This document shows, piece after piece, positions 18,804 to 23,091 of a stretch of DNA of 61,934 nt; position 1 is the first letter of the stretch, and each line of letters starts with the position of its first letter. Origin of the DNA: Prochlorococcus sp. AG-402-M15 (GTDB taxonomy: Bacteria; Cyanobacteriota; Cyanobacteriia; PCC-6307; Cyanobiaceae); contig QCIP01000001.1 in the NCBI GenBank assembly GCA_003216615.1, positions 177,455 to 239,388 on the forward strand, read 5' to 3'. Below the pieces are notes generated by a model. It was not told where the DNA came from, made no database searches, and saw only the letters and a program-made list of their open reading frames with translations. The position numbers and the translations under genes are program-made.

Positions 18804-20558
18804 TCAAACTTTCAACAATGTAGAAGTTGTTAATTTAAAAACTTGTTTATCTATGGTTTCTTTATTTAAAAGTATATCAACTAATTTATCAAGTAAGACT
18901 CTATTTTTTTTCAATATTTCTATTGAATTATTTAATGAAATTTTAGAAATCCTTATGATTTCGTTATCTATTCTAGAACTGGTTTTTCCTGCTATGAGAG
19001 GCTTTCTTCTAAATAATCCTCCTCCCAAAAACATTTCATTATTATCAGAGTCCATTGAAATTGGACCAATAATTGAAAATCCATATTTTGTAACCATTTC
19101 TCTTACAATATTCGTCGCATAAGAGATATCATTTATGGAGCACTGTGTAATTTCACTTTCGCCAAAAACTATCGTTTCTGCTGCTCTTCCTGCTAAAGCA
19201 ATTTCAATTTTTGAAAATAATAATTTTTTTGAAATCAAGCCACTAGAAATTACATCTTCGTCTGGGCATATTTTTGTATATCCTCCTATAGATCCAGATC
19301 TTGGTAAGATTGTAATTTTATCAACTGATTCAATTCCATTTCTCACAGCAGATACAATTGCTCTGCCTACTTCGTTATAAGCAATGATTTTCTTCATATT
19401 AGAAGAAGTTATTAATGAACTTCTAAGGCCAATTGTAATTTTATCAAGAGCATTTTCTATATGAAAATCACTGATTAATTTGGATTTATTTCTTGCACAG
19501 TGAATAGCACTCTCGTTCATCAAATTTGCAAGATCTGCCCCAGAAAATCCAACTGTTCTAGAAGCCCAATATCCTAAGTCAACTTCTTTTGAAAGTGGTT
19601 TTGAAAGAGAATGAACTGAAAGAATTTTTTTTCTTCCATCTAAATCTGGAAGCATTACCTCTATTTTCCTATCAAACCGTCCTGGTCTTAATAAAGCTGC
19701 ATCTAATATATCTGGTCTATTCGTTGCTGCTAAAACAATAATCCCTGAATTATCAGCAAAACCATCTAATTCAGTTAGAAGCTGATTAAGAGTTTGCTCT
19801 CTTTCATCATTTCCACCTCCTATACCGGAACCTCTTTGCCTGCCAATAGAATCAATTTCGTCAATAAAAATTATACAAGGAGATTTTTCCTTAGCTTTAG
19901 CGAATAGATCTCTAACTCGACTTGCACCAACACCAACAAAAAGTTCTACAAACTCGGATGCTGCTATTGAGAGAAAAGGGACTCCTGATTCGCCAGCAAT
20001 TGCTTTAGCCAATAATGTCTTACCAGTTCCAGGAGGGCCAATTAAAAGAACCCCTTTAGGAACTTTTGCTCCAAGATTTTCAAACTTTTCTGGTTCCTTC
20101 AAAAAAGTAATCACTTCCTTTAATTCTTCAGCAGCTTCAGGTACACCAGCTACATCATCAAATCTAGTATCAACATCGTCAATAGTTGCAAATTTAGCTT
20201 GATTTTTACTAAAACCAAAAGCTCTAGAAGCTAATTTTGATGTACTTCTAAGAATTAAAACTAAAGCTAATATAAAAATTATTAAAAGACTAATTGACGC
20301 AAATGAATTAGCTGCTGCGGAATCTTTTCTACTATTATTGATAGTAAGTTCAACTTTATTTTCAGTAGCCTTCTCAAGGATTAATTGATCGTTATAAAGG
20401 ATAGGTATTTTGAATTTGTCACCATTTTTAAACAAAACATCAATTTCTCTCTGTCTTGGATAGAAAAATATAGATTCTATTTTTCCTTCCTCTATATCCG
20501 TTAGAAGATCCGAATAACTTGATTTAGAATTTGAATATGAGAATTTTGATCTAAACAC
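18804..20558 (-). CDS. FtsH-family protein with lost zinc-binding motif (FtsHi-like pseudoprotease)
   Basis: A 584-residue FtsH homologue started by GTG at 20558; an in-frame stop is just upstream. The AAA+ module is intact: Walker A GPPGTGKT, Walker [10 protein letters not shown], and the arginine-finger region ALLRPGRFD. The peptidase part aligns in sequence but the HEXXH zinc motif, usually AYHEAGHA, reads AYNEVGRA: both histidines are gone. The third-ligand region [15 protein letters not shown] is present. Only one transmembrane helix (about residues 86-104, [17 protein letters not shown]) is visible; the usual first helix is missing. It should unfold but not cut proteins, comparable to plastid FtsHi. 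A working FtsH must be elsewhere in the genome. Confidence 0.9.
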
Positions 20559-22108: not shown

Positions 22109-22456
22109 ATGAAATCGTGGACATGTATAGAAAAATGTGGTGCTTGTTGTAAATTCAACTTGAACGAAAGAAGAGATCTTGCTGACAAACTTAACAAAGA
22201 TGATATCGCTTTAATAAATTCAATGACAGATAAAGACGGTTGGTGTATGAATCTAGACAGGGAAAATAAAAAATGCTTAATTTACGAAACTAGACCTCAT
22301 TTTTGCCGGGTTAATGAATTTTCAATTACATTTAAAGAATATTTGAAATCTGGTGACAAATTTCTTATAGATTGCTGCAAACAACATATTTCATCAAATT
22401 ATGGAAATAAAAGTAAAGAAATGAAAAGATTTAAAATGGCAATCTCAGGAAAATGA
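22109..22456 (+). CDS. YkgJ-family cysteine-cluster protein
   Basis: A 115-residue soluble protein with an N-terminal CIEKCGACCKFNL cluster and later cysteines (GWCMN, KKCLIYETRPHFCRVN, DCCKQH), matching the YkgJ family thought to bind a metal or Fe-S cluster. The YETRPHFCR segment is family-typical. Its stop overlaps the start of the UPF0016 gene by 4 bases (ATGA), indicating translational coupling. Confidence 0.85.
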   Translation: MKSWTCIEKCGACCKFNLNERRDLADKLNKDDIALINSMTDKDGWCMNLDRENKKCLIYETRPHFCRVNEFSITFKEYLKSGDKFLIDCCKQHISSNYGNKSKEMKRFKMAISGK

Positions 22457-22779
22457 ATAGTAAATTAGAAAAAAATGAGAACAAAATAGAAAAAAGTTTC
22501 TTATCTATATTTATTACAAGTTTTACAACAATTTTTATTGCTGAACTGGGTGATAAAACCCAGATAGCTACTTTAATGCTCTCTGCTGAATCAGGTAAGC
22601 CAATAATTGTTTTCCTTGGAAGTTCTCTAGCTTTGGTAAGCTCTAGCTTAGTAGGAGTTCTTATTGGTAAATGGTTATCCAAAAAAATATCTCCAAGTAA
22701 CTTTGCTTTATTTACAGGTGCTTTAATGATAATAATAAGTTTATTTTTAGCCTTTGATACTTTCAAAAATTATTTATAA
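22453..22779 (+). CDS. UPF0016/GDT1-family cation transporter, half-size subunit A
   Basis: A 108-residue protein with three hydrophobic segments and the family signature ELGDKTQIATLMLSAES (E-x-G-D-K-T) at about residues 31-47. Full-length UPF0016 members (Mnx in Synechocystis, GDT1/PAM71 in plants) carry two such repeats and move Mn2+ or Ca2+. Here the two repeats are separate genes; this one starts at ATG within the YkgJ stop and has a short basic/acidic N-terminal tail. Confidence 0.85.
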   Translation: MNSKLEKNENKIEKSFLSIFITSFTTIFIAELGDKTQIATLMLSAESGKPIIVFLGSSLALVSSSLVGVLIGKWLSKKISPSNFALFTGALMIIISLFLAFDTFKNYL

Positions 22780-23091
22780 ATGGTTTTAAGTTTATTACTA
22801 TCAACATTTCTAACCGTTTTTATAGCTGAATTAGGTGACAAAACCCAACTAGCTACTTTAACTATAAGTGGCACTTCAAATAAACCATTTGCAGTTTTTT
22901 TAGGTTCTTCTTCTGCGCTTGTCTTTGCAAGTTTACTCGGAGCTTTGACAGGAGGTTCGATTTCAAGTTTTTTACCCCAAGTAGTTCTAAAATCAATAGC
23001 CTCCATAACATTTTTAATTATTGGTATAAGGCTTTTAATTAACTCACTTAATATCGATAATGATGAAAAAGAAGACAAAGAAAATAATTAG
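22780..23091 (+). CDS. UPF0016/GDT1-family cation transporter, half-size subunit B
   Basis: A 103-residue second half-transporter. Its signature is ELGDKTQLATLTISGTSNKP (about residues 16-35), with three hydrophobic segments and an acidic C-terminal tail (DNDEKEDKE). Its ATG follows the stop of subunit A with no gap. The two proteins probably pair in antiparallel to form the two-fold pore that is one polypeptide in other cyanobacteria. Mn2+ export from the cytoplasm is the likely role by homology. Confidence 0.85.
   Translation: MVLSLLLSTFLTVFIAELGDKTQLATLTISGTSNKPFAVFLGSSSALVFASLLGALTGGSISSFLPQVVLKSIASITFLIIGIRLLINSLNIDNDEKEDKENN

Follow-up and report, generated by a model that had tools for sequence, protein, structure and literature searches.

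FtsH rings built from mixed subunits are central to photosynthesis, and the reason for having two subunit types is an open question. The window analysed here, a stretch of 61,934 nucleotides from Prochlorococcus sp. AG-402-M15, brings this question to a single gene. It encodes an FtsH homologue with an intact motor and a broken zinc site, and it raises the question of what such a protein is, where it came from and what a membrane protease that has lost its metal ligands may still be doing.

The gene lies on the reverse strand at 18804..20558 and encodes 584 amino acids from a GTG start at 20558, its reading frame being open for just two codons upstream of that start; the available portion of PMC6300248 names this ftsH1-like gene FtsH4 in picocyanobacteria. 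The product shows the AAA+ plus M41 architecture of FtsH above the curated cut-off (645.1 bits against the FtsH equivalog model TIGR01241, cut-off 600) and matches the Pfam families FtsH_ext, AAA, AAA_lid_3 and Peptidase_M41, with AAA and Peptidase_M41 far above cut-off. On the same strand, the FtsH_ext domain (20343..20531; residues 10-72), which has no membrane helix ahead of it, is followed by a single predicted membrane helix (20250..20306; most hydrophobic 19 residues 85-103, helix 81-108 in the structure model). Walker A (GPPGTGKT, 20016..20039, residues 174-181), Walker B (FIDEID, 19851..19868, residues 231-236) and the arginine fingers (RPGRFD, 19671..19688, residues 291-296), all on the reverse strand, are intact, as is the FVG pore loop.

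The Peptidase_M41 domain (18837..19409, reverse strand; residues 384-574) has lost its zinc ligands. NEVGR replaces HEXXH (19362..19376, reverse strand; residues 395-399), so that AYNEVGRA aligns to AYHEAGHA of Escherichia coli FtsH, with Asn at the first histidine position and Arg399 at the second zinc ligand position. Asp477 at the third ligand position (19128..19130, reverse strand) aligns to the E. coli aspartate (INDI versus SNDI) and is retained in 39 of 40 codon-aligned same-genus sequences; of the HEXXH motif and third-ligand aspartate that mark an active FtsH protease, it alone is retained. Zinc binding and protease activity are thus predicted to be lost, judging from the missing ligands. 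These results agree with the initial annotation, both in the open reading frame, coordinates and motifs that it gave (including a 20-residue protein stretch that is present in the frame) and in its statement that both zinc histidines are lost and the third ligand kept. The same genome holds three further FtsH genes, all with HEAGH or HEVGH. Elsewhere in the window, two adjacent, short, similar-looking membrane reading frames (22453-22779 and 22780-23091) carry ELGDKTQ-type motifs, and together they look to us like a UPF0016/Gdt1-type transporter split in two.

The altered site extends well beyond this strain. In an even draw of 151 Cyanobiaceae genomes from 34 genera, the orthologue was read in 148; 118 of these have H-E-H-D at the four zinc-site positions, and the remaining 30 are altered. 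Altered sites were found in all 13 sequences of the window's own genus (g1), in 11 of 11 read in g32, and in 3/3, 2/2 and 1/1 of g7, g22 and g2, respectively. Same-genus loci were taken from the best 30 of 200 genomes (29 besides the window's own gene) plus 3 fetched later; the 32 extra sequences bring the set to 62 dead sequences among 180 orthologues. Both histidines are missing in 45/45 same-genus sequences read, a count biased to close relatives except for the 13 sequences of the even draw, and a strain-specific or sequencing change is thereby ruled out. No residue of NEVGR varies in the 40 codon-aligned same-genus sequences, while four of the five codons vary synonymously. The check on NEVGR that had been proposed for the relatives therefore came out positive within the genus (40/40), with the motif letters differing between genera. 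The counter-example that had been foreseen, an HEXXH at this locus in other strains, occurs in more distant clades and not among near relatives: Prochlorococcus sp. AG-442-M23 carries NEVGR, and Cyanobium sp. Aljojuca 7A6 carries HEIGH. The orthologue of G205, which we take to be P. marinus SS120, reads NEAGK.

Across the 62 dead sequences, the second zinc histidine is Lys or Arg in every one, and it is the sole position replaced in every case. The first histidine has become N, Q, Y or R and is still H in one sequence (G220, HEAGR); the glutamate of the motif is lost in g32 and g2; and the third-ligand aspartate has changed to E, N or H in some (3/45 same-genus sequences). At least one acidic residue nevertheless stands at the Glu (general-base) or Asp (third-ligand) position in 62/62. 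All-basic columns number 3 of 199 in M41 (15 representative dead rows). Seven ATPase and pore positions, among them Walker A and B, the arginine fingers, sensor 1 and the pore loop, are invariant in 180/180 orthologues.

Three further observations concern individual sequences and sites. The third-ligand loop at residues 472-477 (19128-19145) has the pattern Q-G-A-x-x-D in intact rows and Q-x-S-x-x-[D/E/N] in most dead ones; Ser stands in place of Ala in 14/15 dead rows, a change that is perhaps coupled to Lys/Arg at the second ligand. The most diverged copy, that of G200 (L195:2989-4710; branch 2.41), has RNASK at the zinc motif, GSPGTGKT at Walker A and RAGRFDK, and is still an open frame within the rpmF locus. 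The orthologue is missing in G212, G312 (g32) and G243 (3 FtsH genes only), and gene loss was considered and set aside in favour of a likelier assembly gap, as rpmF was also not found in these genomes, while a parallel search recovered it in two relatives.

Phylogenetic analysis used trees of 84 and 39 rows selected from the loci. The 84-row tree gathers all 14 of its dead rows into a single clade (SH-aLRT 99) that sits within intact Cyanobiaceae rows, and in the 39-row tree the clade of 15 dead rows has a support of 92.4. The divergent neighbour rpmF (ribosomal protein L32; 20690..20860, forward strand) lies beside the orthologue in 86/87 loci, dead and intact, the remaining locus (L058) beginning at a contig end, and two more genes follow beyond rpmF in most loci examined. 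Because the dead rows make up a single clade within intact orthologues and share the rpmF locus with them, one loss of the zinc site inside Prochlorococcus is the simplest account; one clade is also compatible with several losses within it. The HEAGR of G220 suggests that the second histidine was lost first, and the Lys/Arg at this position probably arose in one step, in the ancestor that the streamlined Prochlorococcus clades share.

The deeper branches place the gene among FtsH subunits, with clade names taken from PMC6300248 and from recall. In the 84-row tree, the 35 picocyanobacterial rows share one side of a branch (support 98) with 15 of the 20 best matches from the outgroup, and the FtsH2-, FtsH3- and FtsH4-like clades lie on its other side; the remaining 5 outgroup rows sit nearer the paralogues. 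A further branch (support 99) has FtsH1-like and FtsH2-like rows on one side and type-A and FtsH4-like rows on the other. Best matches outside the family are HEXXH-bearing in 27/27 read, of 33 genomes, though not each of them need be FtsH1. In the published tree, picocyanobacterial FtsH4 is homologous to FtsH1, less clearly than is the case for the other isoforms (PMC6300248). The dead gene thus appears orthologous to the FtsH1-type (type B) subunit of other cyanobacteria. Its nesting among picocyanobacterial orthologues, in an 84-row tree composed without plant and Synechocystis rows, argues against descent shared with plastid FtsHi. Overall, the gene encodes a real and conserved FtsH1-type subunit, predicted to be protease-dead and most simply of one origin.

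The loss of protease ligands is distinct from a second peculiarity of the protein. The initial annotation had reported the usual first membrane helix as absent and listed this together with the zinc-site change. No hydrophobic first helix was found before FtsH_ext in the 584-residue protein, which has one helix in place of the common, not strictly defining, two-helix layout flanking FtsH_ext; according to the accessible text of a review, FtsH may have either one or two membrane helices (PMC9020784). A hydrophobic stretch ahead of FtsH_ext, scored on stop-to-stop frames, occurs in 0/14 dead and 1/21 intact Cyanobiaceae rows, and in that one intact row (L121) the upstream stretch may be untranslated. 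The absence therefore stands, and its coupling to the protease loss does not, being ruled out by the 20/21 HEXXH-intact Cyanobiaceae rows that also lack the segment. Best-match rows of other cyanobacterial families have an N-terminal hydrophobic stretch in 20/20 cases (19 of L125-L151, and L181). Since the absence is common to intact Cyanobiaceae and the stretch is present in other families, helix loss is probably a separate trait, older than protease loss.

The N-terminal stretch of the outgroup often ends in A-x-A-Q and so resembles a signal peptide more than a first helix, but the A-x-A pattern is too loose to identify cleavable signal peptides, as it fires in 8/12 FtsH2-like, 9/10 type-A and 1/7 FtsH4-like rows. 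Most Cyanobiaceae rows lack the stretch, and no export signal is evident for their N-terminal domain. In dead rows, the segment ahead of the remaining helix has a net charge of -3 to +1 and the segment behind it one of +3 to +4, which fits a motor in the cytoplasm and an N-domain outside.

A structure model from the 40-row alignment (mean pLDDT 77.5, pTM 0.50) places residues 386-407, NEVGR included, in one helix. Its best structural match is apo-FtsH (3kds_F, Z 38.3, 423 aligned residues, rmsd 4.3), and motor chains of Ycf2-FtsHi also match (8xku_E, Z 33.0). The latter match, together with the intact motor residues, raises the possibility that the protein is a non-proteolytic unfoldase or translocase that would move or disassemble membrane proteins, alone or with other subunits, in the manner proposed for the Ycf2-FtsHi motor of chloroplasts; plant FtsHi proteins act in an import motor, according to the available portion of PMC8197885. 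Ordinary FtsH, however, matches the predicted fold at least as well, and the nesting of the dead clade within protease-intact Cyanobiaceae speaks against FtsHi ancestry in our tree, in which plants had no row. Fold alone would not decide function, and we consider this alternative rather unlikely.

Selection on the gene was compared in the 26 same-genus genomes shared by the data sets of three genes. For the dead gene, omega is 0.036 (CI 0.022-0.054) in AAA and 0.128 (CI 0.095-0.169) in M41, against 0.009 and 0.014 in the type-A gene L001 and 0.009 and 0.027 in the type-B gene L002. The dead-gene peptidase domain is more relaxed than in the active paralogues, yet far from free. A strong clade-wide release of this domain is likewise not seen in branch lengths: dividing M41 by AAA branch length in the 39-row tree gives 2.48 for the dead clade and 2.17 for other branches, and the peptidase domain therefore seems still to be needed. 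The g32 stem alone shows a burst (0.77 versus 0.11, 39-row tree). The earlier expectation of selection on the ATPase and none on the peptidase thus proved half right, the ATPase being held (about 0.04) and the peptidase held too (0.13, CI 0.09-0.17); neither value comes near the dN/dS of 1 that would have spoken against conservation. The central proposal of the initial annotation, a conserved pseudoprotease with an intact-looking motor, is upheld by the clade-wide occurrence and the purifying selection. In the same 26 genomes, dS of the dead gene is 0.22-0.32 by domain, compared with 0.46-0.50 for the type-A and 0.56-0.76 for the type-B gene, that is, about half to two thirds of the former and half or less of the latter; recombination, a sweep or synonymous constraint could explain these low values.

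The same data bear on the idea that FtsH1-type proteolysis became unneeded in streamlined Prochlorococcus and that the gene is a slowly decaying relic on its way out. The dead gene evolves faster than its paralogues, the G200 branch is very long, and, with G200 left out, 35 of 51 columns that are invariant in intact rows are changed in at least one dead row in M41, versus 31 of 139 in AAA. Decay is improbable all the same: the dead copies read have long open frames, the motif and the ATPase residues stay invariant over synonymous change, omega is far below 1 in each domain, and the three genomes that lack the gene also lack rpmF, which points to assembly gaps. A pseudogene in the strict sense is ruled out by low omega and open frames.

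We propose, with moderate confidence, that the gene encodes a protease-dead, ATPase-competent type-B FtsH subunit, most likely working in a mixed hexamer with the type-A FtsH L001 (HEAGH). In such a ring, the dead subunit would supply ATP-driven pulling and substrate choice, and the sites of the type-A partner would do the cutting. Type-A copies have HEAGH in 29/29 read in the genus. Pairing with an active type-A FtsH is suggested by analogy with Synechocystis, where, in the text available from PMC11287208, the type-B subunits FtsH1 and FtsH2 each form hetero-oligomers with FtsH3, a type-A subunit, and where the essential FtsH1/3 complex has regulators among its targets, for example Fur and, per a published model, PhoU. 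For type-B subunits, loss of ATPase harms photosystem II (PSII) repair and loss of protease does not (PMC9020784, in the part seen, citing Zhang 2010 and Yu 2013). A mixed hexamer in which type-A subunits cut suits a type-B subunit that has lost its protease site and kept a motor under selection. Of the two functions originally offered for the gene, the hetero-oligomer partner is accordingly the one favoured by the FtsH1-like, type-B phylogeny and the published type-B mutagenesis, whereas for an import motor the support goes no further than resemblance of fold.

Several points count against this proposal. Dispensability of type-B protease activity was reported for PSII repair and not for FtsH1/3, and the evolutionary rate of the dead gene is several times that of the partner suggested for it (omega 0.04-0.13 versus about 0.01), which is unusual for equal members of a ring. 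In addition, M41 columns changed more often than AAA columns (35 of 51 versus 31 of 139, as given above), Glu and Asp have each disappeared in some lineages, and the G200 copy has diverged widely. In MED4, the FtsH pool is balanced between isoforms 1, 2 and 3, per the qRT-PCR text in PMC6300248. That the dead subunit is instead a dominant regulator, its incorporation cutting the number of cutting sites per hexamer and sparing substrates, follows the same hetero-hexamer logic and agrees with selection on a dead subunit, but nothing here separates such tuning from a simple motor-half function, and we rate it as very improbable.

Returning to the mixed hexamer, the invariant basic residue may also explain how the peptidase domain persists. 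The Lys/Arg charge would pair with the retained acid or acids of the old zinc pocket and hold the domain without metal. We tentatively extend this to a broader picture, possible but less than probable, of a half-dead AAA+ protease that arose in one event, in which zinc was replaced by built-in pairing of Lys/Arg with the old catalytic acid(s), so that the peptidase ring is metal-free yet assembled: an independent counterpart of chloroplast FtsHi in a free-living bacterial lineage, and possibly a way for the ocean's tiniest phototrophs to spare zinc. If true, a pseudo-active site that is free of metal and kept in shape by paired charges would have a wider bearing on how pseudometalloproteases are read. 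The route to an FtsHi seems here to have been the exchange of one histidine for a basic residue in a subunit that was already specialised. A natural dead protease with a kept motor separates both roles without mutagenesis, and the intact orthologues at the same locus provide a ready control.

Part of this has precedent. One FtsHi was counted in P. marinus SS120 in 2019, with a remark on its chlorophyll b, in the available text of PMC6460958, and the count was repeated in 2021 (PMC8197885, likewise in part); that FtsHi is very probably the SS120 version of the gene studied here. The loss described here differs from the portion of PMC6460958 at hand in spanning five genera of the family set, while G241 retains HEXXH. 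This assembly is presumably MIT9313, a chlorophyll-b strain. The words "zinc" and "inactive" are absent from the main texts of PMC6300248 and PMC11262661, and the part of PMC11287208 available does not mention a lost zinc site. In the literature on FtsH and FtsHi in Prochlorococcus and cyanobacteria, which was covered mostly outside subscription papers, we found nothing on extent, origin, basic replacement or preservation. The SS120 pseudoprotease was therefore already reported, and its clade-wide extent, origin, basic replacement and preservation appear new against the literature so covered.

Among known systems, cyanobacterial FtsH1 (Synechocystis slr1390, partner of FtsH3) shares the AAA+/M41 layout and groups, through 15 of 20 outgroup rows, with the gene studied here; the Prochlorococcus copy differs in lacking both HEXXH and the hydrophobic N-terminal segment. 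The plant FtsHi proteins (FtsHi1, 2, 4 and 5) likewise combine an AAA+ motor with a destroyed HEXXH in the same fold. Their motifs are TEVGV, NEAAM, REAAV and WAAGR, with Y, T, S and E at the third ligand (PMC11266112, Table 2, source available in part). Unlike the Prochlorococcus protein, they do not consistently have K/R at the second ligand, and all four have lost the aspartate; the two pseudoproteases very probably differ in descent. An Arabidopsis type-B FtsH whose protease site was inactivated by design, reportedly by Zhang in 2010, is similar in being a protease-dead type-B subunit within a type-A/type-B complex. The Arabidopsis case is a laboratory mutant in a thylakoid complex, whereas the Prochlorococcus case is natural and belongs to the FtsH1 lineage.
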